From the NCBI GenBank assembly GCA_039707465.1, contig CM077648.1, forward strand, positions 71,629,619-71,693,618: a stretch of 64,000 nt of DNA, in the 5' to 3' direction. Each line of letters starts with the position of its first letter. Position 1 is the stretch's first letter. Under the pieces are notes generated by a model. It saw nothing but the letters and a program-made list of their open reading frames with translations, was not told the DNA's origin and made no database searches. Source of the stretch: Rhabdophis nuchalis. Its lineage: Eukaryota; Chordata; Lepidosauria; Squamata; Natricidae. The translations under genes and the position numbers were made by a program. Positions 8,583 to 47,252 of the stretch are shown piece by piece.

Positions 8583-10099
8583 TTAAGGGGGAAGGTCGTT
8601 CCAAAGGGCAGGGCCTGCCACAGAGAAGGCTCTTCCCCTGGGTGTCGCCAGATGGCATTGCCCGGCCGACGACACCCTGAGAAGGCCCTCTCTGTGGGAG
8701 CAGATCAGCCATAGGGATGTATGGGGCAGGAGACGGTCTCGCATATAACTAGGCCCCGAGCCATGGAGCGATTTAAAGCTGGTCGTCAGAACCTTGAAGC
8801 GCACCCGAAAGACCACAGGAAGCCAGTGCAGCTCGCGCAGGATTGGTGTTATATGGGAGTATCTCGGAGCTCCCGTTATTACTCGCGCGGCTGCATTCTG
8901 GACTAGCTGTAGCTTTCGAGTGCACCTCAAGGGAAGCCCCATGTAGAGAGCATTGCAGTAGTCGAGCCGGGATGTCACGAGTGCTTGAGTGACTGTGCGA
9001 AGGACAGCCCGGTCCAGTAAGGGGCGCAATTGGCGCATCAGGCGTACCTGATGAAACGCCCCCCTGGCCACGGCTGTCACATGATCATCCATGGACAGCC
9101 GGGAATCCAGGAGGACACCCAAATTGCACGCCCTCTCCACGGGGGCCAGTGTTTCGCCCCCGATGGCCAGAGTTGGAATAATCTGGCTGAACTGGGGTGC
9201 CAGAAACCACAGCCACTCAGTCTTGGACGGGTTGAGTTTGAGTTTGTTACTACCCATCCAGATCCGTACGGCCTCCAAACACCGGGACAGCACCTCGGCG
9301 GCATCGTTGGGGTGGTCTGGGGTGGATATGTACAGCTGGGTGTCATCGGCGTACAGACGATATCCCACCCCAAAACCACGGATAATCTCGCCCAGCGGCT
9401 TCATATATGTGTTGAACAGAAGGGGCGAGAGGACCGACCCCTAAGGAACCCCACATGAGAGAGGTTTCGAGGTCGACCTCTGCCCTCCTGTCAATACATA
9501 TTGCGACTGACCAGAGAGGTAGGACGAGAACCACTGTAAAATGGTGCCTCCCAGTCCCAACCTCCCCAGTCGGTGCAATAGGATACCATGGTCGATGGTA
9601 TCAAAAGCCGCTGAGAGGTCTAACAGGACAAGGATAGAGGAACAACCTCTATCCCGTGCCCTCCAGAGATCATCAACCAACGTGACCAATGCCGTCTTGG
9701 TGCTGTGACCGGGTTGGAAGCCGGACTGGCGTGGGTCTAGATAATCAATTTCCTCCAAGTGTCGCGGAAACTGTTGGGCCACCACACTCTCAACAACCTT
9801 CGCTAGAAAGTGGAGGTTGGAGACTGGGCGGTAATTCTCCAATAATGCTGGGTCCAGGGAGGGCTTCTTGAGGAGGGGCCTCACTACCGCCTCTTTCAAG
9901 ATGGCAGGCAAGGACCCCTCACTCAAAGAAGCGTTGACAATCTCCTGGAGCCAGCCTCGTGTCGTCTCCCAGGATGCCAGTACAAGCCAGGAGGGACACG
10001 GGTCCAATAAACATGTGGTAGCCTTAAGTCTCTTTGACAACCTGTCCATATCCTCGGTAGTAACAAAGTCAAACTCCTCCCAGGATGTTACCTCAAGAC
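8583..10099 (-). pseudogene. L2-group ORF2 reverse transcriptase, copy B
   Basis: Minus-strand frames contain VTSWEEFDFVTTEDMDRL, the RT motifs [21 protein letters not shown] and [10 protein letters not shown], and the C-terminal [20 protein letters not shown]. The frame is broken just after the CGVP of motif B (around 9441-9444), where a nonsense codon replaces the glutamine codon of GVPQGS. The 9404-8583 part is then open to near the normal terminus ([10 protein letters not shown]). With the 5' section at 14866-15575 this would be about two thirds of ORF2, missing the endonuclease N-terminus. Confidence 0.85.
10092..10099. repeat. 8-bp target site duplication (left), CTCAAGAC
   Basis: CTCAAGAC at 10092-10099 is repeated exactly at 14858-14865, immediately outside the inverted termini of the 10100-14857 element. 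Confidence 0.95.
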
Positions 10100-10170
10100 C
10101 AGGGGTGGGTTTCAAAAATTTTGGAACATATTCTATGGGTGTGGCCTGCTTTGTGGGAATGGCTTGCTGG

Positions 10171-10337
10171 CCATGTGACTGGGTGGGAGTGGCTTGCCGG
10201 CCATGTGACCGGGTGGGAGTGGCTTGACAGCCATGTGACCGGGTGGGAGTGGCTTGACAGCCATGTGACCGGGTGGGAGTGGCTTGCCGGCCATGTGACC
10301 GGGTGGGAGTGGCTTGCCGGCCATGTGACCAGGTGGG
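10171..10337 (+). repeat. 30-bp minisatellite, about 5.5 copies
   Basis: The unit begins CCATGTGACCGGGTGGGAGT and ends with GGCTTGCCGG, with a period of exactly 30 bp. Units start at 10171, 10201, 10231, 10261, 10291 and 10321 (partial). Variants alternate GCCGG and GACAG. The same unit occurs about four times at 45232-45345 and about once in the copies at 24436-24475 and 42310-42350 (opposite strand), so it is a VNTR of this family. Confidence 0.95.
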
Positions 10338-11274
10338 AATGTTAGCAGCTGCTGGAATTATGTTTGTACAACAGTGGAAAAACAGATATGAAAATGAATA
10401 AATACTACAATGTGCAGGAATAAATAAAGTGACAATTAAAATCAAGAAGGCTTTGAATATTTTCTCACGTGGGATTTGTTTTAGCAATTGCTAAGTAACA
10501 GAAACAGAAAATAGAAATCCAAAAGTATGAAAGACAACACCAATTATGTAAGGAAAGGTCACTAAAATGCACCAACCTGGCAGCCCATAGAAAAGCAGCC
10601 ACTTTATAAACCTGGTCTGAACACTTAAAAGCAACATATTGCATCTCAAAGAAAACATTTGCAAAAAGGAATAACATTTCATGTAGTAAATATATTTTAT
10701 AAACAATTAAAAAATAGAAATTCCCTAAAAGAATGTAAAAAAAAGATATTCTATAAGGTTGATACAGGTTGTTGCCAACATCCTAGGTATCAATTACATC
10801 CTCAATTACCATTCTTAAACTTGTAAGTGAAGTTGAGCTCCACTGCTTATGACGTGTGTGGCACATCCCTATAGTTTACTTGGCAGCATTACAGAAGTGG
10901 TTGTCACTGTTTTATTTTATTTTTTTAATTGCCTAGCCACTTATAGGCCTGTTCTTTTGTAGTGACTTCCCAATCAAGTACTAATCAAATGCAACTTACA
11001 TTTTTTTCACATCAGCCAAGGGCCACTGATTTCCAGATAAAAAGTGATTTCTTATGCATACATATACCTTTAACAGTCTATTTTTAAGAAAATATATGTA
11101 GAAAAATACTCTGAAAATTTACCCTGAAAAAGGTCAACATAGTTTCCACTGAATAAATATTTTATGATTTTATAATTAATTGTGTTATCCCAAGCAACAA
11201 TATTTTATTGGGCAAAGAAATATAAAATAACATCAGAAACGTGTTAGATTATGTATATAAAGTCATAATAAACT

Positions 11275-11385
11275 ATAAGCCACCCAGAGTCACTGCATCA
11301 GTGAGATGGACAGCATAATTATTTTTTAAAAAATAATATAGTATTAATATTATTAATAGTATAGTATAGTATAGTGCACAATACA
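11275..11385 (+). mobile_element. LINE-like 3' tail with (ATAGT)n
   Basis: The text 'gccacccagagtcactgcatcagtgagatgg' (11279-11309) resembles the 3' end of a CR1/L3-type LINE. It is followed by AT-rich sequence and a short (TATAG)n run at about 11357-11378. It lies inside the large hAT-type element, so it is either a passenger or a later insertion. The boundary is uncertain. Confidence 0.45.
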
Positions 11386-11927
11386 GTATAATAAAATTAA
11401 AACAAGGCAAATAATGTATCAAGGTAAAAAAAATACTCCAATTCTATTTTTGATATTAAAAGCAGTTTTCCAGATATAAAGTGCTGGAAATTCACATCGT
11501 TTATAAGCCTGAAAAGTGGATACAGATGCAAATAGAATACAGGTGAAGGATGCCAGCTGTTTTGTTATTCCTATTTGGGGAGGGGGGAAGCAGCATAAAA
11601 ACCAATCGATTTGCCAAAGAGGAAAGGCATGAAGCTCAGCCATTTTCATGCGAATAACTTATATGGGTAAAACTGACATACTTTTCTCATTTAATTTAAT
11701 CGGTAAAAGTTCAGAGTCCCAGTCCCAAGATAGGTGGCCATATAAATCATTTAAATAAACAAGCAACTTCCATTGATTTACTTACAAATAAGAATGTAAG
11801 TCCTAAATACAGCAGCTGCGTATTCAGGAGAGGCGGTGGGGACGGTTTACAGAGCAACGTGGAGCGGTAGGGAAACGCGTGTGTCCTGCCGCCGCTCTGC
11901 GCCGGAAGTCCCTGCCAACCAGGGACG

Positions 11928-14545
11928 CTAGCCGGGGGTGGGAAGCAGTTGCAGAGAGGCGCGGGCGAGCCTGCGAACTTCGCACACGCGCTCGCCCGCG
12001 CCTCTCCGCAACTTCTTCCCACCACTGGCCAGCGAGTTTAGCGAGTTTAGCTGGCCGGGGGTGGGAAGCAGTTGCGGAGAGGCACGGGCGAGCCTGCGAA
12101 CTTCACACACGCGCTCGCCCGCGCCTCTCCGCAACTTCTTCCCACCACTGGCCAGCGAGTTTAGCGAGTTTAGCTGGCCGGGGGTGGGAAGCAGTTGCGG
12201 AGAGGCACGGGCGAGCCTGCAAAGTTCGCACACGCACTCGCCCGCGCCTCTCCGCAACTTCTTCCCACCACTGGCCAGCGAGTTTAGCGAGTTTAGCTGG
12301 CCGGGGGTGGGAAGCAGTTGCGGAGAGGCACGGGCGAGCCTGCGAACTTCGCACACGCGCTCGCCCGCGCCTCTCCGCAACTTCTTCCCACCACTGGCCA
12401 GCGAGTTTAGCGAGTTTAGCTGGCCGGGGGTGGGAAGCAGTTGCGGAGAGGCACGGGCGAGCCTGCGAACTTCACACACGCGCTCGCCCGCGCCTCTCCG
12501 CAACTTCTTCCCACCACTGGCCAGCGAGTTTAGCGAGTTTAGCTGGCCGGGGGTGGGAAGCAGTTGCGGAGAGGCACGGGCGAGCCTGCAAAGTTCGCAC
12601 ACGCACTCGCCCGCGCCTCTCCGCAACTTCTTCCCACCACTGGCCAGCGAGTTTAGCGAGTTTAGCTGGCCGGGGGTGGGAAGCAGTTGCGGAGAGGCAC
12701 GGGCGAGCGCATGTGCGAACTTCGCAGGCTCACCCGTGCCTCTCCGCAACTGCTTCCCACCCCCGGCCAGCTAAACTCGCTAAACTCGCTGGCCAGTGGT
12801 GGGAAGAAGTTGCGGAGAGGCGCGGGCGAGCGCGTGTGCGAACTTTGCAGGCTCGCCCGTGCCTCTCCGCAACTGCTTCCCACCCCCGGCCAGCGAGTTT
12901 AGCGAGTTTAGCTGGCCAGTGGTGGGAAGAAGTTGCGGAGAGGCACGGGTGAGCCTGCGAAGTTCACACACGCGCTCGCCCGTGCCTCTAAGCAACTGCT
13001 TCCCACCCCCGGCCAGCTAAACTCGCTAAACTCGCTGGCCAGTGGTGGGAAGAAGTTGCGGAGAGGCACGGGTGAGCCTGCGAAGTTCGCACACGCGCTC
13101 GCCCGTGCCTCTAAGCAACTGCTTCCCACCCCCGGCCAGCTAAACTCGCTAAACTCGCTGGCCAGTGGTGGGAAGAAGTTGCGGAGAGGCGCGGGTGAGC
13201 GCGTGTGCGAAGTTCGCAGGCTCGCCCGTGCCTCTCCGCAACTGCTTCCCACCCCCGGCCAGCTAAACTCGCTAAACTCGCTGGCCAGTGGTGGGAAGAA
13301 GTTGCGGAGAGGCGCGGGCGAGCGCGTGTGCAAAGTTCGCAGGCTCGCCCGTGCCTCTCCGCAACTTCTTCCCACCACTGGCCAGCGAGTTTAGCGAGTT
13401 TAGCTGGCCGGGGGTGGGAAGCAGTTGCAGAGAGGCACGGGCGAGCCGGCGAACTTCGCACACGCGCTCGCCCGCGCCTCTCCGCAACTTCTTCCCACCA
13501 CTGGCCAGCGAGTTTAGCACATTTAGCTGGCCGGGGGTGGGAAGCAGTTGCGGAGAGGCACGGGCGAGCGCATGTGCGAACTTCGCAGGCTCACCCGTGC
13601 CTCTCCGCAACTGCTTCCCACCCCCGGCCAGCTAAACTCGCTAAACTCGCTGGCCAGTGGTGGGAAGAAGTTGCGGAGAGGCGCGGGCGAGCGCGTGTGC
13701 GAACTTTGCAGGCTCGCCCGTGCCTCTCCGCAACTGCTTCCCACCCCCGGCCAGCGAGTTTAGCGAGTTTAGCTGGCCAGTGGTGGGAAGAAGTTGCGGA
13801 GAGGCACGGGTGAGCCTGCGAAATTCACACACGCGCTCGCCCGTGCCTCTAAGCAACTGCTTCCCACCCCCGGCCAGCTAAACTCGCTAAACTCGCTGGC
13901 CAGTGGTGGGAAGAAGTTGCGGAGAGGCACGGGTGAGCCTGCGAAGTTCGCACACGCGCTCGCCCGTGCCTCTAAGCAACTGCTTCCCACCCCCGGCCAG
14001 CTAAACTCGCTAAACTCGCTGGCCAGTGGTGGGAAGAAGTTGCGGAGAGGCACGGGTGAGCCTGCGAAGTTCGCACACGCGCTCGCCCGTGCCTCTAAGC
14101 AACTGCTTCCCACCCCCGGCCAGCTAAACTCGCTAAACTCGCTGGCCAGTGGTGGGAAGAAGTTGCGGAGAGGCGCGGGTGAGCGCGTGTGCGAAGTTCG
14201 CAGGCTCGCCCGTGCCTCTCCGCAACTGCTTCCCACCCCCGGCCAGCTAAACTCGCTAAACTCGCTGGCCAGTGGTGGGAAGAAGTTGCGGAGAGGCGCG
14301 GGCGAGCGCGTGTGCAAAGTTCGCAGGCTCGCCCGTGCCTCTCCGCAACTTCTTCCCACCACTGGCCAGCGAGTTTAGCGAGTTTAGCTGGCCGGGGGTG
14401 GGAAGCAGTTGCAGAGAGGCACGGGCGAGCCGGCGAACTTCGCACACGCGCTCGCCTGCGCCTCTCCGCAACTTCTTCCCACCACTGGCCAGCGAGTTTA
14501 GCGCATTTAGCTGGCCGGGGGTGGGAAGCAGTTGTGGAGAGGCGC
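11928..14545. repeat. 123-bp palindrome-rich satellite array, about 21 monomers with higher-order structure
   Basis: The monomer period is 123 bp (for example CTGGCCG at 12051, 12174 and 12297). Each monomer holds two hairpins: GTTGCGGAGAGGC ... GCCTCTCCGCAAC around a spacer with a TTCGCA core, and CTTCCCACC ... GGTGGGAAG around GGCCAG ... CTGGCC. The first six units follow a three-unit order (369 bp: spacers with gaacttcgc, gaacttcac, aaagttcgc, repeated). A later block repeats at 861 bp (7 x 123; 12701 versus 13562), with one extra unit in the second block, giving 984 bp (8 x 123; about 13431 versus 14415). Several segments appear in flipped orientation. Because 123 is a multiple of 3 and the units lack stops, long open frames occur on both strands; these are not genes. 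Confidence 0.95.
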
Positions 14546-14857
14546 GGGCGAGCAGGCGAAGTTCGCATGCGCGGCACCTCCGCAACCGCTTCTCACAGCC
14601 AGCCAGTGAGTTAGCGCCGGGCAGCAGTGGGAAGCGGAGTGGGGGAGCATGCAAACTTCACACGTGCCTCTCCGAGTTCCAAGCCACCGGCGGCCAGCGA
14701 TTTTAGCGCTGGCTAGGCGGTGGTGGGGAGGGGCGTGGACGTGCGCGGGGGACCTACTTACTTCCGGGTCCACCGGTCCAAGCGGATCGCTCGGGATCAG
14801 TAAATTTGACGAAAGGGCTCGCGGGAGCCCGTGCGAACCCTTAGGAACCCACCCCTG

Positions 14858-14865
14858 CTCAAGAC
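14858..14865. repeat. 8-bp target site duplication (right), CTCAAGAC
   Basis: An exact copy of 10092-10099 directly follows the CCCCTG end of the hAT-type element. Confidence 0.95.
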
Positions 14866-15575
14866 CAGCTTTGGGCAGTCCGGCCAGACCACTCTCGATG
14901 GAAGGTAACTCATTCCGAATCCGAGTGATTTTGTCCTGCAGATAAATCCCAAATTCCTCTGCTCGTCCCTGCAGCGGGGCTTCCCGCGGCCTCTGGTGAA
15001 GGAGGGAGCGGGTTACCCCAAACAGGGCGACAGGGCGGTTATCTGCGGATGGAATAAGGGTGGCACAATACTCACGTTTGGCCACCCTTATCGCCACTAA
15101 GTAAGTCCTAATATGGGCTCTCACTAGTGTTCGGTCGGCTTCGGAGCGAGAGGATCTCCATCTGCTCTCTAGGCATCTCCTGTGGCGTTTCATCTCCCTC
15201 AGCTCCTCAGTAAACCAAGGAGCCTGGGTGACTCGTCGCCGCAAGAGAGGCCGCAAGGGCGCGACTCGGTCCAAGGCCCCCGTGGCCGCACTTAACCATG
15301 TGGTCACTAGGTCCTCAGTCGAGTCGCGGGGCAGGGTCACAGGAATTGGCCCAAGCTCCCTCTGGAACCCATCTGGGTCCATCAGGAGCCTGGGGCGGAA
15401 CCATCTAGGAATGTCGGGCTCCGCCTCCCCGCGGTGAGGTTAGGCGATTGGAAAGTCCAGCCGGAGGAGAGCGTGATCTGTCCATGACAAGGGTGTGATG
15501 GCTAAATCCCCTGTTCCCAGATCACTACTCCACTGTCCCGAAACGAAGATCAAATCCAGGGTGTGTCCTCCCTCA
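14866..15575 (-). pseudogene. L2-group ORF2, copy B, 5' portion (endonuclease end)
   Basis: This continues copy B on the far side of the hAT insertion. Minus-strand coding runs from HTLDLIF and SWTDHALLRLDF (end of the AP-type endonuclease, about 15575-15440) through FRPRLLMDP and FTEELREMKR to SIESGLAGLPKAGLE at 14866. There is a frame break at about 15437. The LINE stops at about 15575, so the copy is 5'-truncated. Confidence 0.85.
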
Positions 15576-16545
15576 TAGTCTCTCTGTCTATGGGGTATTA
15601 TATTTAATTGGGAATGTTATTTTAGTTTAACTTAGTTTTAATGGGGATTTTTAGCACAGGTATAGCCTGGGTACACTATGTAATATAATAAAAAGTGCAA
15701 TAGGAAAAAAAGCTCTTCTATGTGACAATTTATAAGATTAAGAACAAAAACTGTACAGAATATAGAAAAATCAGTCTCAAAGTGCATTCTTCAACATGTC
15801 TCTAATCACTGTAGAAGCATCTTATTATTCTGCTTGAACAATGACAATGTGGACTTTCTCACTAACTTACAAATAAGCACATCTTTTTTTCTCCATCAAA
15901 TGAAAAATGTGTAGATATTTTTTCTATGTTACTTCAACTTGAATAGTTCCATTAGGTTTAATTGATCAATGTTGCAAATGTCAACATCTGCACATTGATA
16001 CCACTGAGCAGAGCAGGAGTGCCCAGATGGAACATTTCTACCAGAGCCCTGTCATAATCAGACAGGTTTTATAATTAACAAAGAGAAGAGCACTAGAAGA
16101 TTTTGTGTGTGTTCTTCCTGTGAATATATTCGCCGTGGGTGGCTTAATTTAACAAAGAGGCTTGGGTAGAGCTGAGGAGCTACCAAGGGTATGCTTGCTG
16201 CCAGTATATCACAGTTTAAAGTTAATAGCATTAGTTCTTTCTTTGTATATTGTAGGTCCCAAACAATCTCCTACAAAATGAAAAGGTCCTTTTTTCAATC
16301 AAAGGGTAGTTAAAACTCAGTGTACAATCACAAGCAAAACACTGAGATAGATGCTTTTATACCTTAGACATACAATCTGTCCTTGCAGTAGTTGCTTGCA
16401 ATTTGCAATTTGGGAACTCAGCAGCAGGACCTTCATCAAGGCAAGACCCTGGGGTTTCTCTGTGGTTTAGTTAACCAGCTCTGTCTCCTAGCTGTTATCC
16501 TTTCATTTATTGTCTGCCTTACTATCTCATCCTTCTTGCCGTTAC
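15576..16545. other. Unassigned non-coding DNA
   Basis: AT-rich sequence. A stretch at 15620-15700 ('agtttaacttagttttaatggg', 'tttttagcacagg') weakly resembles the 3' UTR of the L2 family, but no tail or coding sequence confirms it. No gene is seen. Confidence 0.35.
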
Positions 16546-16622
<77 letters not shown>

Positions 16623-16670
16623 TTATTAAATTTATAGACCACACCCTCTCCCCGAAGGGACCTAACCACT
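16546..16670 (-). repeat. (AAT)n microsatellite joined to an L2 3' end
   Basis: About 25 AAT units (16546-16622) lead into 'tttattaaatttatagaccacaccctctccccgaagggacc', the reverse complement of the 3' end shared by the L2-group copies. The microsatellite is therefore the expanded tail of an extremely 5'-truncated antisense LINE. Confidence 0.85.
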
Positions 16671-18897
16671 ATCTGCCATCATAAAAAATTGACATGCTGG
16701 CCAGATGGCTGTAGCTGCAGCCGCTTGTGCATCAGTTTAAAATTAAATATATTCTCTTAGCCTAGCTGTGATCAATCAGCCACACCCTTGAGTGAGCACT
16801 GGCTGATGAGAGACCTGTCTCCCTTTTGCCCCAATGTTCCCATAATTAGCTAGGTGCCCCCAAATTATCAGATAATTTGGCCACAGTCATAAGTATTGTG
16901 TTCAGAAAATCACCTTAAAGGCTGCACATCACCTACCATTCCGCCACAGCACTGTTCCTGAGGGGGAGGGGGAAATGTTCTCCATGTTGGATATTTAACT
17001 TCCATCTATTACCATTAATATATGGTCAAAATGTTAGATGTCAAAAAACATCAGAAAAGCCAAAGATTGTTCCTTTCCACAGACATCTGATTTTCTAATA
17101 TTACAGAGTACACTCTTCTGTGCATGGACTGTTTTCTTGCATGTATTTGCAAAAACACAAGCAAGGAAAAGTAAATTCTGCCTTGAAAATAAAGGAGATT
17201 TTGGGAGAGTGGGGAATACTAGGTGGAAAATGGAATTTCTAAAATTGTTCTTGGCCCAAGTTTGTTCACTATAAACAAGTTTTTAAGATAAAAACTATTC
17301 TTTAAAAAAACATTTTGCAAATATGAAAGGTTCTGTCCATTTAATTTTTCTAGACATTTTTTTCAAATTCAGAAAATTGAATGAAAGATTTTGCTAGCTA
17401 ACAATCACTATCAGGAGCCTTAAATAAAGAACATTTGTCTTTTACTAAAAAGAAGAATTAAGTTTACAATCCTTCAACTACCTGTATCCATCTCTCTCTC
17501 ACACATAGGCATTAAGAAAATATACTGACGCACAGAGATCTATCTGTAATGTCTACTCAGAATCAATCTAAATCAAGGCAAGGTAGAATAAGAATCTCAA
17601 ATATCTTGTGGGAATTGAAAATCATATTCCAAAGTAATGGGATGACTATGGAGCTAATTTATTATCTTAAACGCAGCTCAGGAAACTCAAGTGAAGGATT
17701 TTTAACAGGACCTCCTTGGACATTCAGAAACAGGCAGAGTCAATTCTGCCAAAATAATACCTGTTGCATGCTTCAACTGTGCTTCACAGGGTTTGAAAAC
17801 TTTGAACTGGGTTATGAAACCTACTGGCAATAGTTAGATAATCTTAAAATATTTGTTATCTTGCACACTTCAGCTGCCACATTGTGTACTAATTATAGTT
17901 TTTTTGTTATGTGCGCAAAACCTCATGTAGAACCTACAACAGTAATCCAAGCAAAAGGACCTCAGGCTATAAATTACCAGGGCATAAGCTGCACACCAGC
18001 CAAGTCTAGGCAAAAGCCACTCTGATCATGACTTCCACTTGCTTATGCAGAAGTTTAAATCCAGACAGACTCTCAAGTCACAAACAAAAATGTTTAATGT
18101 GTATATTACATACATTATATATGTAAAAAGGGAGGGGTTTCACTAATACAGTCTTGTTCATCATCTTGACCCCCTCCCCCCTCTCCTGGATTCTTCTCTC
18201 TGTCACTTTTGCTCTGTCCATGACCACCTGGGTTTCACTCGACCCCGTAAGACTGGATTCAACTGTATCTGTAAGTTATATAGTACAATAAATGTTAAAA
18301 CATTCAGAAGGCCAGCAGCTACCAGTGTGGAATTTGATTTTCCAGCTATTGCAGGTATTTATCTTTCACTGTATCTATCTCACAGGGAGATATTTCTTGG
18401 CAGTCACCACAAGTGATAAATATAATGGATTTTGTTGCTTAAGTAATTGTTTTAGATGAGATGACAGGTTTCAGACATGCCTTTTCTTTCCAGTGTTGTT
18501 CAAGGGATATGCTTGCTATTGGATTCCACTTCTCCTTTTTAACGCCAAAAGTTATTGAACTCCATCTTTTTCTAGAATTGGTTGTCAAAGTTTTATAAGT
18601 TTTTGAATCATTTTACTTGTTTCTTGTATTTATTCTGTTACCTTTCCAATAGTAGTTCACTGTCTAGCTGAAGAGTAGATTATACTTAGTGAATTTCTAT
18701 GTGTAAATAATTACTGAGCAAACCTTATAGTATATAAGATGCCAATACTAGGAAAATTACACTTACGTACAAAAAAGACAAGAAACATTGTGTGAATGCT
18801 AGTAAGCATTAAGGATATGCCATTTCACAGTGAACAATTTGAACCACTACTTATTTTACATTCTTAATATGATTTGGAAGTGACAGTTCACAGAATT
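16671..18897. other. Unassigned non-coding DNA
   Basis: No gene or confident repeat was recognised over 2.2 kb. Open stretches (17038-17274 and 17549-17833) have no known domain. A near-palindromic 'acatacattatatatgt' occurs at 18109-18125. Confidence 0.35.
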
Positions 18898-22543: not shown

Positions 22544-22969
22544 CAGGGGTGCGTTCCTAAGGGTTCGCACGGGATCCCGCGAGCCCTTTCGTCAAATTTC
22601 CCGATCCCGAGCGATCCCTTTGGACCGTGGACCCGGAAGTAAGTCCTCCGCGTTCGTCCCCGCCCCCCCGCCGCCCAGCCAACGCTAAAATCGCTGGACG
22701 CCGGGGGGGGCTTGGAACTCGGAGGGGTGCCCGGGACGCGTGCGAAGATCGCCTCTCCGTGCCGCTTCTCACCGCCGGCCAGGGAGCTTAGCGCCAAGCG
22801 GCAATGAGAAGCGGAGCAGAGGGGCGAGCTCTTTCACACAGAGACACAGACACGCACACACACACGCTGGCGTGCTCCGAGAGGCTGGCTCTTTTCTCTA
22901 GCCGAGGCTGACGTCTGGCTGAATCTCTAGCCCGCTCCCTTATCCTCACGACGGGGTCGGCAGCGGCGC

Positions 22970-23600
22970 TCTCTTGTGCGGCCACTTCAGCTTGGCAGCC
23001 TTTGCCCCGCTAAGAGACGACGCTGTGACAGCCGCCGCCGCGCTCCCTTCTCTTTCCTCGCCTCTCCTCCCTTCGCCGGCAGGAGCATGCGCGCCTGCTG
23101 CTGCCACCGCCGCCGCCACTTCTAACTGCTGCTCCCTCAGCTGGGGCGGGCAGGCAGGAAAGCAAGCAAGGCGGCTGCGCTGTCTTCTTTTTCCCTCAGC
23201 GAAGCGCCGCCGCGGCCGCCTCCTCCTCGCCCATCGAAGGTGGCGGCGGCCGCGGCGGCGCTTCGCTGAGGGAAAAAGAAGCCAGCGCAGCTGCCTTGCT
23301 TGCTTTCCTGCCTGCCCGCCCCAGCCCCTGCTGCTGCCGCCGCCGCCGCTGCTAACTGCTGCTCCGGAAAAGATCGGCGCGCACATGCCCCGCTCGATTA
23401 CAGCCTCGGAGAGCTTGTAGCGGTGCGAGTCTGCGCTGTAATTTTGCAGGACCTGCACGCGCCTATCTTTTCAGCGCACCGTGGAAAAGCGCCAAGTTTC
23501 TGGACGGCCCCTGATCACTCTAGACGCCATCGGGGAAGACGGGGAACGCGAGGGGGACCTCGCGGATGGCGTCGCCGGCAGCGCAGAGTCGCTGCTGCTT
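22970..23600. other. CpG-rich block inside hAT-type element
   Basis: Dense CpG with mirrored copies of 'ctgcgctgtcttctttttccctcagcgaagcgccgcc' (about 23175-23215) and its inverted counterpart (about 23250-23290), so the block contains an inverted repeat with arms of tens of bases. It also appears, in reverse orientation, at 46200-46830. A CpG-island-like promoter role is possible but not shown. Confidence 0.65.
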
Positions 23601-23632
23601 CACACGGTATTCTGTGGACACAGTGACCGGAA

Positions 23633-23647
23633 GACAGAGAGAGGCAC

Positions 23648-23711
<64 letters not shown>

Positions 23712-24309
23712 AGGGAGGGAGGGAGGAAGGGAATCAGAATCTGACAGACACAGAGAGAATGGCAGAGAGAGACAGGAAGGGAGGGGAGAGACACAGAGAT
23801 AAGAGGGAGGGAGAGAAAGATAGAGACACAGAATGAGTGATTAAGTGCCTGAATGCGAGACAGGCAGACACACACACACACAGAGTGACAGAGATGGGCG
23901 GACGAAGGAGAGAGAGACAGAAAGAAAAAGAGAGAAAGAGAAAGAAAGAAAAAGAAAGTGGGAGAGAGAGAAAGAAAGACAGAGAAAAAGAGAAAGAAAG
24001 AGACAAAGGAAAGAAAGAGAGAGAGAAAAAAAGAGAGAGGGAAAGAAAGAAAGAAAGACAGAAAGAGAGAGAGAAAGAGAGGGGGAGAGAAAGAGGGAAA
24101 GAAAGAGAAAGAGAAAGAAATAAAGAGAGAGAGAAAGAGGGAAAGAAAGAAAACATGAGAGAGAAAGAAAGAGAGAAAGAGGGAAAGAGAAAGAAAGAGA
24201 GAAAGAGAAAGAAAGAGAGAGAGAGAGAAAGAAAGAGGGAAGGAAAGAAAGAGACAGAGAAAGAAAGAGAGACAGAGAAAGAGAGAAAGAAAGACAGAAG
24301 GAAAGAAAG

Positions 24310-24354
<45 letters not shown>
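23633..24354 (+). repeat. Purine-rich (GA/GAAA)n array, about 720 bp
   Basis: Almost pure purine on the plus strand, made of GAGA, GAAA and GGGA units, with a CA-rich break at 23870-23885 (cacacacaca). The same array occurs on the opposite strand at 45421-46160. Such homopurine-homopyrimidine tracts can form triplex DNA. Confidence 0.95.
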
Positions 24355-24525
24355 TTATGACCACAATTAAGCCCAAAAGTTTGGTTGCTAACCAAGACCA
24401 TTGTTAAGTGAGTTTCACATTTTCCAAATTGGCCACTCTCACCCGGTCACATGGCCGGCAAGCCACTCCCACAAAGCAGGCCACACCCACAGAACCTGTT
24501 CCAAAAATTTTGAAACCCACCCCTG

Positions 24526-45160: not shown

Positions 45161-46104
45161 CAGGGGTGGGTTTCAAAATTTTTGGAACAGGTTCTGTGGG
45201 TGTGGCCTGCTTTGTGGGAGTGGCTTGCCGGCCATGTGACTGGGTGGGAGTGGCTTGCCGGCCATGTGACCGGGTGGGAGTGGCTTGCCGGCCATGTGAC
45301 CGGGTGGGATTGGCTTGCCAGCCATGTGACCGGGTGGGAGTGGCCAATTTGGAAAATGTGAAACTCACTTAACAATGGTCTTGGTTAGCAACCAAACTTT
45401 TGGGCTTAATTGTGGTCATAAGTTCTCTCTCTCTCTCTCTCTCTTTCTTTTTCTTTCTTTCCTTCTGTCTTTCTTTCTCTCTTTCTCTGTCTCTCTTTCT
45501 TTCTCTGTCTCTTTCTTTCCATCCCTCTTTCTTTCTCTCTCTCTCTCTTTATTTCTTTCTCTTTCTCTCTTTCTTTCTCTTTCTCTCTTTCTTTCTCTTT
45601 CCCTCTTTCTCTCTCTTTCTTTCTCTCTCATTTTTTCTTTCTTTCCCTCTTTCTCTCTCTCTTTATTTCTTTCTCTTTCTCTTTCTCTTTCTTTCTTTCC
45701 CTCTTTCTCTCTCCCTCTCTTTCTCTCTCTCTCTTTCTGTCTCTTTCTTTCTTTCCCCCTCTCTCTTTCTTTTTCTCTCTCTTTCTTTCCTTTGTCTCTT
45801 TCTTTCTCTTTTTCTCTGTCTGTCTTTCTTTCTCTCTCTCCCACTTTCTTTTTCTTTCTTTCTCTTTCTCTCTTTTTCTTTCTGTCTCTCTCTCCTTCGT
45901 CCGCCCATCTCTGTCACTCTGTGTGTGTGTGTGTCTGCCTGTCTCGCATTCAGGCACTTAATCACTCATTCTGTGTCTCTGTCTATCTTTCTCTCCCTCC
46001 CTCTTATCTCTGTGTCTCTCCCCTCCCTTCCTGTCTCTCTCTGTCATTCTCTCTGTGTCTGTCAGATTCTGATTCCCTTCCTCCCTCCCTCCCTCCCTCC
46101 CTCC

Positions 46105-46146
<42 letters not shown>

Positions 46147-47252
46147 GTGCCTCTCTCTGTCTGCCGGTCACTGTGTCCACAGAATACCGTGTGAAGCAGC
46201 GGCGACTCTGCGCTGGCGGCGACGCCATCCGCGAGGTCCCCCTCGTGTTCCCCGTCTTCCCCGATGGCGTCTAGAGTGATCAGGGGCCGTCCAGAAACTC
46301 GGCGCTTTTCCACGGTGCGCTGAAAAGATAGGCGTGTGCAGGTCCTGCAAAATTACAGCGCAGACTCGCACCGCTACGAGCTCTCCGAGGCTGTAATCGA
46401 GCGGGGCATGCGCGCGCCGATCTTTTCCAGAACAGCAGTTAGCAGCGGCGGCGGCGGCAGCAGTAGGGGCTGGGGTGGGCAGGCAGGAAAGCAAGCAAGG
46501 CGGCTGCGCTGTCTTCTTTTTCCCTCAGCGAAGCGCCACCACGGCCGCCGCCACGTGCGATGGGCGAGGAGGCAGCGGCCGCGGCCGCGGCTGCACTTCG
46601 CTGAGGGAAAAAGAAGACAGCGCAGCCGCCTTGCTTGCTTTCCTGCCTGCCCGCCCCAGCTGAGGGAGCAGCAGTTAGCAGCGGTGGTGGCGGCAGCAGC
46701 AGGCGCGCGCGCTCCTGCCGGCGAAGGGAGGAGAGGCGAGGAAAGAGAAGGGAGCGCGGCGGCGGCTGTCACAGCGTCGTCTCTTAGCGGGGCAAAGGCT
46801 GCCAAGCTGAGGTGGCCGCACAAGGGAGCGCCGCTGCCGACCCCGTCGTGAGGATAAGGGAGCGGGCTAGAGATTCAGCCAGACGTCAGCCTCGGCTAGA
46901 GAAAAGAGCCAGCCTCTCGGAGCACGCCAGCGTGTGTGTGTGCGTGTCTGTGTCTCTGTGTGAAAGAGCTCACCCCTCTGCTCCGCTTCTCATTGCTGCT
47001 TGGCGCTAAGCTCCCTGGCCGGCGGTGAGAAGCGGCACGGGGAGGCGATCTTCGCACGCGTCCCGGGCACCCCTCCGAGTTCCAAGCCCCCCCGGCATCC
47101 AGCGATTTTAGCGTTGGCTGGGCAGCGGGGGGGCGGGGACGAACGCGGAGGACTTACTTCCGGGTCCACGGTCCAAAGGGATCGCTCAGGATCGGGAAAT
47201 TTGACGAAAGGGCTCGCGGGATCCCGTGCGAACCCTTAGGAACCCACCCCTG
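45161..47252 (+). mobile_element. 2092-bp non-autonomous hAT-type element with CT array
   Basis: Starts CAGGGGTGGGTTTC and ends GGAACCCACCCCTG: a perfect 12-bp TIR with an exact 8-bp TSD. The order is a VNTR of about four 30-bp units (45232-45345), an 'aacaatggtcttggttagc' block (45371-45389), a pyrimidine array (45421-46160), a CpG-rich block (46200-46830), a TG-rich stretch, a GC-rich palindrome zone (46980-47050) and a right end. It has the same structure as 22544-24525 in the opposite orientation. No transposase is encoded, so it must rely on an enzyme supplied in trans. Confidence 0.93.
45421..46160 (+). repeat. Pyrimidine-rich (CT/CTTT)n array, about 740 bp
   Basis: Mirror counterpart of the GA array at 23633-24354; plus strand almost pure pyrimidine with a 'gtgtgtgtgtgt' break near 45919-45932. 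Long open frames here encode S/L/F/P repeats and are not genes. Confidence 0.95.

Follow-up and report, generated by a model that had tools for sequence, protein, structure and literature searches.

In Drosophila virilis, the non-autonomous DNA transposon Tetris/TIR-220 carries internal tandem repeats that expand into satellite-like arrays (PMC4079207), and a review of MITE-derived satellites describes how tandem arrays grow within inverted-repeat transposons (PMC12628747). Inversions at hairpins are also on record. In rRNA genes, template switching has inverted hairpin loops while the stem was kept, with 69 cases of 'loop inversion only' entered in Table 1 of the report concerned (PMC8794818), and in chloroplast genomes short inversions occur at the hairpin-forming palindromes of stem-loops, the same sites being affected repeatedly (summarised in PMC3123225). 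Recurrent, overlapping short inversions have been reported from the nuclear genomes of birds as well (PMC3123225).

How does the present locus compare with these systems? In the window, by which we mean the whole 64,000-nucleotide stretch of Rhabdophis nuchalis DNA that was analysed, a palindromic array with a 123-bp unit lies in copy A, but not in copies B and C, of a transposon. We consider it probable that this array of paired hairpins expanded from the hairpins at the right end of a young non-autonomous hAT transposon, that it moves with the transposon, and that it flips via its arms. The transposon copies and the array have the following positions in the window.

10092..10099, no strand: left target site duplication of 8 bp, CTCAAGAC
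10100..14857, plus strand: copy A of the non-autonomous hAT transposon, 4758 bp; terminal inverted repeat of 12 bp, CAGGGGTGGGTT, and target duplication of 8 bp
10153..10338, plus strand: minisatellite with a 30-bp unit, 6.2 copies, in the left end of the transposon; copy B has it at 45214-45344
10345..11780, plus strand: AT-rich interior of the transposon, common to other genomic copies, with mostly 97-100% identity where present
11930..14512, plus strand: palindromic array of 21 units of 123 bp, in exact register
14586..14637, plus strand: single terminal hairpin adjoining the array; its counterparts in B (46983-47035) and C (22762-22814) have the opposite orientation
14858..14865, no strand: right copy of the target site duplication
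22544..24525, minus strand: transposon copy C, without the array; target site duplication GAATGAAC
45161..47252, plus strand: transposon copy B, without the array; target site duplication GGCGGAAG

The ends of copy A, CAGGGGTGGGTT and AACCCACCCCTG, are short terminal inverted repeats starting with CAG, which are typical of hAT elements, and the target site duplications of A, B and C each match at 8 of 8 bases. Moreover, copy A is inserted in a LINE, and the flanks, once joined, align gap-free to an uninterrupted copy of this LINE. The LINE that hosts copy A carries reverse transcriptase domains and is presumably of the L2 type. By its ends and its target duplication, the element at 10100-14857 is classed as a non-autonomous hAT transposon, and the proposal of an earlier, sequence-only reading that the array lies inside a transposon is thereby borne out. 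Tandem repeats grow at both ends of the transposon, the 30-bp minisatellite GTGGGAGTGGCTTGCCGGCCATGTGACCGG being present in 6.2 copies in A and 4.4 copies in B. The 1.4-kb AT-rich interior (10345-11780) is common to many array-bearing copies, but B and C lack it and have a CT-rich microsatellite in its place; this is one family with different interiors. The long CT/AG microsatellites of B (45424-45898) and C (23632-24352) run in opposite orientations in the window.

Where did the monomer of the array come from? Against the right ends of A, B and C, the array unit outscored all 200 shuffles, and it did so in both directions, as expected of a palindromic unit; no alignment above the shuffles was obtained with the transposon interior or the left neighbourhood. 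Because the array unit matches the right end only, the monomer most likely derives from the right-end hairpins of the transposon. The terminal hairpin beside the array is turned between copies. In inverted alignment, that of A has 26 (B) and 25 (C) identities over 35 columns, and 0 of 2000 shuffles were as good; in direct orientation, 287 (B) and 157 (C) of 2000 shuffles scored at least as high. When 42 sequences were scanned and orientation was counted only at a score above 60, which left out 27 of them, 15 were confidently oriented, 13 in the same way as A and two, B and C, in the opposite way.

Dissection of the array gave 21 units in register and in mixed orientations, that is, no single simple orientation. 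Each unit consists of an arm, a spacer, an inverted arm and a core, in that order, and holds two hairpins, a description already given in the sequence-only reading and upheld both by the dissection and by folding far beyond chance. In the forward consensus, the two 40-base arms of a unit differ by 4 mismatches. One of the spacer hairpins, folded as DNA, reached -51.7 kcal/mol (z -11.2), with 0 of 200 shuffles as good. When the units were stacked, coordinated complement swaps became visible in the core (22 bases), in the spacer (21 bases) and at the arm markers in columns 5/97, 7/95 and 17/85. These swaps are in-register inversions rather than point mutations. Core, block and spacer each occur in both orientations within the array, as had been claimed, and there are 13 distinct sequences among the 21 units. 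The extent first assigned to the array, 11928-14545, also matches ours, the host transposon being larger.

Since 123 is divisible by 3 and one unit makes 41 codons, several frames on either strand run open through the array (e.g., 11807-12952 on the plus strand), the longest at 381 aa, and spurious repeat proteins over the array may come from automatic gene callers. We rejected the array as a protein-coding sequence: Pfam matches were scattered over unrelated families, and the sole match above its cut-off, DHBP_synthase, falls in the repeat translation and is taken as spurious. A protein search with the 381-aa frame gave nothing at E <= 0.001 among 7993 candidates scored. The exact arm pattern had 0 matches in viral and prokaryote collections, and Rfam, at its gathering threshold, had 0 matches over 9700-16700.

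The order of orientations along the array can be divided as follows.

11930..12684, plus strand: forward run, comprising units 0-5, which are a 3-unit repeat and its single duplicate (3 differences), and the beginning of unit 6
12685..13366, minus strand: proposed 682-bp reciprocal inversion; both breakpoints can be placed within hairpin arms, no more finely than that
12888..12917, plus strand: core turned relative to its flanks (13134-13163 as printed in the re-inverted frame)
12931..12997, plus strand: spacer hairpin turned relative to its surroundings, unit 8
13054..13120, plus strand: spacer hairpin turned relative to its surroundings, unit 9 (a near-duplicate of unit 8)
13529..14512, no strand: units 13-20, a segmental duplicate of units 6-12 with one unit added; the core flip recurs at 13749-13778

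The window array needs four inversions, or three if units 8 and 9 share one. In the first 13 units, undoing all four reduced the mismatches to the forward consensus from 162 to 35: the 682-bp inversion alone brought them from 162 to 71, the spacer flips of units 8 and 9 from 71 to 58 and then to 45, and the core flip from 45 to 35. These gains of 91, 13, 13 and 10 were obtained with inversions at palindrome-register centres, as against a best gain of 5 out of register; such centres make up 26 of the 3188 possible, and every gain above 5 falls on them. Another agreement is not rewarded by consensus fitting: once the 682-bp inversion and the two spacer flips have been undone, the original unit 6 has the non-consensus states 37T, 49G and 70T in common with units 8-9. 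CpG-type transitions account for 21 of the 35 residual differences, 37T and 70T included, and shared marker states may arise twice because many markers are CpG transitions. The 682-bp inversion (units 6-11) is reciprocal, since the marker pairs at its two junction hairpins, C/G and A/T, are complementary and its inner units retain the mismatched A/G, so that the arm mismatches are preserved inside.

The second half of the array largely repeats this history by duplication. Comparing units 6-9 with 13-16 gives 1 difference in 492 bases, and comparing units 10-12 with 18-20 gives 2 in 369; unit 17, which is extra, is identical to unit 16. Because units 6-12 recur near-identically as units 13-20, the core-flip sites at 12888 and 13749 represent one event that was duplicated. 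The sequence-only reading had pointed to a forward core within reversed flanks at 12890-12925 and again at 13755-13785 and had concluded that the segments flip separately. The arrangement is indeed present at both sites (12892 and 13753), but the second is not independent of the first, owing to the segmental duplication; similarly, the nested segments do flip separately, but not in many independent flips, because 3-4 inversions together with duplication suffice. A fourth nested level, in which an inner 13-mer of the spacer would be flipped in unit 11 relative to units 2, 5 and 7, was rejected, as one CpG transition plus one transversion explains it equally well.

The source genome (1.918 Gb, 348 contigs) was searched for the array unit; 40 of 148 candidates were scored, and 38 loci were retrieved for comparison with copy A. 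The right-end match was present at all 38 of these loci, and 14 had the left end, more than 1200 bases of the interior, array units and the right end (among them L022 and L024, whose interior is in pieces, and L037, whose right end is partial), the others being shorter or truncated. Interior identity to A was mostly 97-100%, falling to 91% in pieces of L014, L022 and L024. In 27 of the 32 copies with paired left and right ends (A, B and C included), at least 7 of the 8 bases of the target site duplication match; the five other paired copies match at 3-6 of 8, L014 and L023 having a spurious left end. A census with the core pattern, allowing up to 2 mismatches, gave 98 matches at 27 places, two arrays 2 kb apart on contig C5 being counted as one place, and 0 matches with a reversed control pattern. 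Of these places, 26 were among the copies retrieved earlier, and the remaining one was added. The census is a lower bound, because shorter or more diverged cores escape the pattern. The window array holds 20 of the 98 cores. Among the 40 of 148 candidates scored, the arrays are dispersed in transposon copies and mostly shorter than 1 kb, the longest being the 21 units of the window, rather than forming the long, many-unit arrays of a satellite.

Are segments also flipped in these other copies? Parsing of orientation at 39 loci yielded at least one hairpin call at 31, with 134 spacer hairpins and 108 core hairpins. The commonest states were a forward spacer with arm markers C/T (69/134) and a forward core with S-left and L-right arms (60/108). 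Twelve of the 134 spacer calls were undecided, of which ten are degenerate (on the right-end side or similar), one is the hybrid of L014 and one is in L043. Relative to the right end of the transposon, flipped or hybrid segments were found at 11 of the 27 census places, namely A, L010, L014 (hybrid spacer), L022, L024, L025, L026, L027, L035, L036 and L047, the last of which was read by eye from the sequence and not by the parser. None was found at the other 16, some of which have only one to three hairpins and some a degenerate last spacer with no call. A single R call at L037 (score difference 6, degenerate spacer), a locus outside the 27 census places, was left out of the count. The 1436-bp interior parallels the right end in the copies having it, the exceptions being reverse matches of 31-39 bp, most of them within one internal repeat, and one further reverse match of 117 bp with 75% identity in L044. 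Because this non-palindromic interior keeps the direction of the right end, flipping is tied to the palindromes.

Configurations are common within each of the groups L022/L024, L025/L026 and L035/L036/L047, the members of which therefore look like transposed copies of a flipped parent. The 11 flip-bearing places would then represent about seven lineages, a number that is approximate because the interior tree has many near-zero branches and support ranging from 0.04 to 1.0. This tree comprises 21 copies, with L025, L026, L035 and L047 left out; it is star-like, with a nearest-copy distance of about 0.4-1.4% for copies with a full interior, and in it the flip-bearing A, L010, L014 and L027 are not grouped together and L022 and L024 are sisters. 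Besides A, six flip-bearing copies (L010, L025, L026, L027, L035 and L036) match at 7 or more of the 8 bases of the target site duplication, and matches are weak at L022 (4/8), L024 (6/8) and L014, which lacks a true left end (3/8). If the L-cR-L blocks seen at L022, L024 and L035 are flips that took place in older, symmetric arms, as they could be, they are silent on mechanism. In L035, L036 and L047, about 10 bases within both arms of a core hairpin appear to be inverted (GCGGAGAGGC to GCGCCTCCGC on one side), so that internal flips of the arms may occur in this lineage as well. We also considered whether flips go with interior deletions and set this aside as too confounded by shared descent.

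What process might have turned these segments? Hairpin-arm recombination or template switching, which the sequence-only reading had put forward, seems to us the best explanation of the flips: that proposal gains from the flips in other copies, from the one reciprocal inversion and from the flip at L010, non-reciprocal as it stands, and loses only the many independent flips imagined for this array. A tandem hairpin array would grow from the right-end hairpins and travel with the transposon, and whenever two of its arms, whichever they are, took part in an inversion or a template switch, a core, a spacer, a block or several units would be cleanly flipped. Such flips would keep the 123-bp register because all arms of the array match one another in inverted orientation. 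The flips of 20-70 bp would arise mainly by template switching, during replication or repair, at extruded hairpins, since on physical grounds such short loops would bend poorly for a crossover between duplexes; the 682-bp flip would be a crossover between inverted arms; and flips would spread by transposition, as the sister copies with common flips suggest.

Two loci bear on the choice between these modes. At L010, one reversed spacer lies between two forward blocks, with the arm markers 17A/85T, the left arm matching the unchanged right arm. We read this as a template-switch mark, because one reciprocal flip across that column would give A/G, not A/T. An A/T pair with a reversed spacer is also found at junction units 11 and 19 of the window array, so that L010 could be a junction unit left behind after an inverted stretch was lost. 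Such a remnant would be a two-step story, because the inner arm markers of L010 (columns 5 and 7) are of the forward type. The L010 flip thus appears non-reciprocal in its present state, as template switching predicts and as later exchange could also produce. At L014, the left half of the spacer is reversed and the right half is forward; the halves are joined at the inner palindrome, and the spacer is 4 bases longer than usual. Non-reciprocal copying, in which the loop is inverted and one arm is rewritten, fits both L010 and L014, with the reservation that the A/T pair also marks the inversion junctions of the window. Template-switch-like and crossover-like modes would both fit the observed flips, and it is with moderate confidence that we ascribe the short ones to template switching.

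Could reciprocal crossovers between inverted arms have produced all of the flips, large and small, without template switching? We think this rather unlikely. The 682-bp inversion behaves as a crossover should, keeping the inner arm mismatches and showing the junction pairs C/G and A/T; however, L010 and the hybrid spacer of L014 are not products of one reciprocal flip, and loops of 21-30 bp would, by a physical argument, be too short for easy synapsis of duplexes. An account that we judge unlikely supposes one ancestral array of mixed orientation and little flipping since then, the orientations having been sorted later by unequal exchange, gene conversion and transposition. It draws on the units having clearly spread by duplication, on the flips common within L022/L024, L025/L026 and L035/L036/L047, and on the state A-R-T of L010, which is that of junction units 11 and 19 of the window. 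However, 16 of the 27 census copies are flip-free, the flip-bearers are ungrouped in the weakly supported interior tree, and configurations and breakpoints vary between lineages. By analogy with other hAT elements, the array might be maintained because its hairpins are putative binding sites for a hAT transposase, and this we hold to be very unlikely. hAT transposases do use subterminal repeats, as in Hermes (PMC10368747), and the array adjoins the right-end match in the array-bearing copies examined; yet B and C, whose target site duplications are intact, have no array, so that the array is not needed for movement, and in the available text of their report the Hermes authors place the BED site at AAGT and want the older GTGGC proposal re-evaluated (PMC10368747). 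Finally, assembly error, to which a 2.6-kb tandem array of near-identical units might seem prone, deserves hardly any credence, although locus by locus it is weakened rather than dismissed: on five other contigs of the same genome (C1, C2, C3, C4 and C5, the window being on C6), 10 further places have flipped or hybrid segments, which disfavours misassembly of one array, eight of these 10 places are in arrays shorter than 1 kb as judged by their unit matches (L036 spans 1.9 kb), the duplicated units differ by 3 bases and one extra unit, unlike a simply copied error, and the window is without any N.

If, as we favour, the paired hairpins flip through their arms and are carried by the transposon, the array might be an active inversion recorder, in which each hAT excision followed by gap repair, or each replication, could flip segments by template switching, and the orientation codes would differ between copies and still be changing, and individuals of the species would be polymorphic for them. 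This is a tentative extension that we regard as doubtful. Short hairpin inversions are hard to study in nuclear genomes, where there is one event per locus. Here, about a hundred near-identical hairpin cores have known positions and orientations relative to the transposon ends, and arm markers can separate reciprocal inversion from template switching. It should be possible to count how often hairpins flip, and by which mechanism, in one vertebrate-type genome and to test this in a population, and the flipped hairpin pieces in several copies are a legible trace of a mutation process that is seldom visible.

The sequence-only reading knew of no described satellite with such combinatorial flipping, and we noticed no transposon-borne hairpin array with repeatedly flipping nested segments in the literature searched, which is weak evidence given its thin subscription coverage. 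The novelty is nevertheless narrower than first claimed, because hairpin-loop inversions have been described in other systems. Tetris resembles the present transposon in having internal repeats, there perhaps duplicated from part of its own end (PMC4079207). However, Tetris is foldback-like, with its repeats in long inverted ends, whereas here the array is at one end and the monomer is two hairpins; the foldback plan does not extend to copy A, in which the terminal inverted repeat measures 12 bp, only the right end has the array and the left end has a different, 30-bp minisatellite. The words 'palindrom' and 'hairpin' are absent from the Tetris text as available (PMC4079207), and the available text of the MITE-satellite review lacks the whole word hAT and describes no orientation flips (PMC12628747). 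The inverted loops of rRNA are typically 4 nt long, with some of 7-8 nt (PMC8794818), whereas here segments of 21-30 bp, whole blocks and a multi-unit run are inverted in a mobile array. The chloroplast inversions concern plastid DNA (PMC3123225) and those described here a tandem nuclear array; the avian hotspot inversions are, in the text available, not associated with stem-loops (PMC3123225), whereas here the flips fall in strong hairpins. Hairpin flipping and transposon-borne arrays were therefore both known already, and the new part is a transposon-borne hairpin lattice that flips repeatedly.
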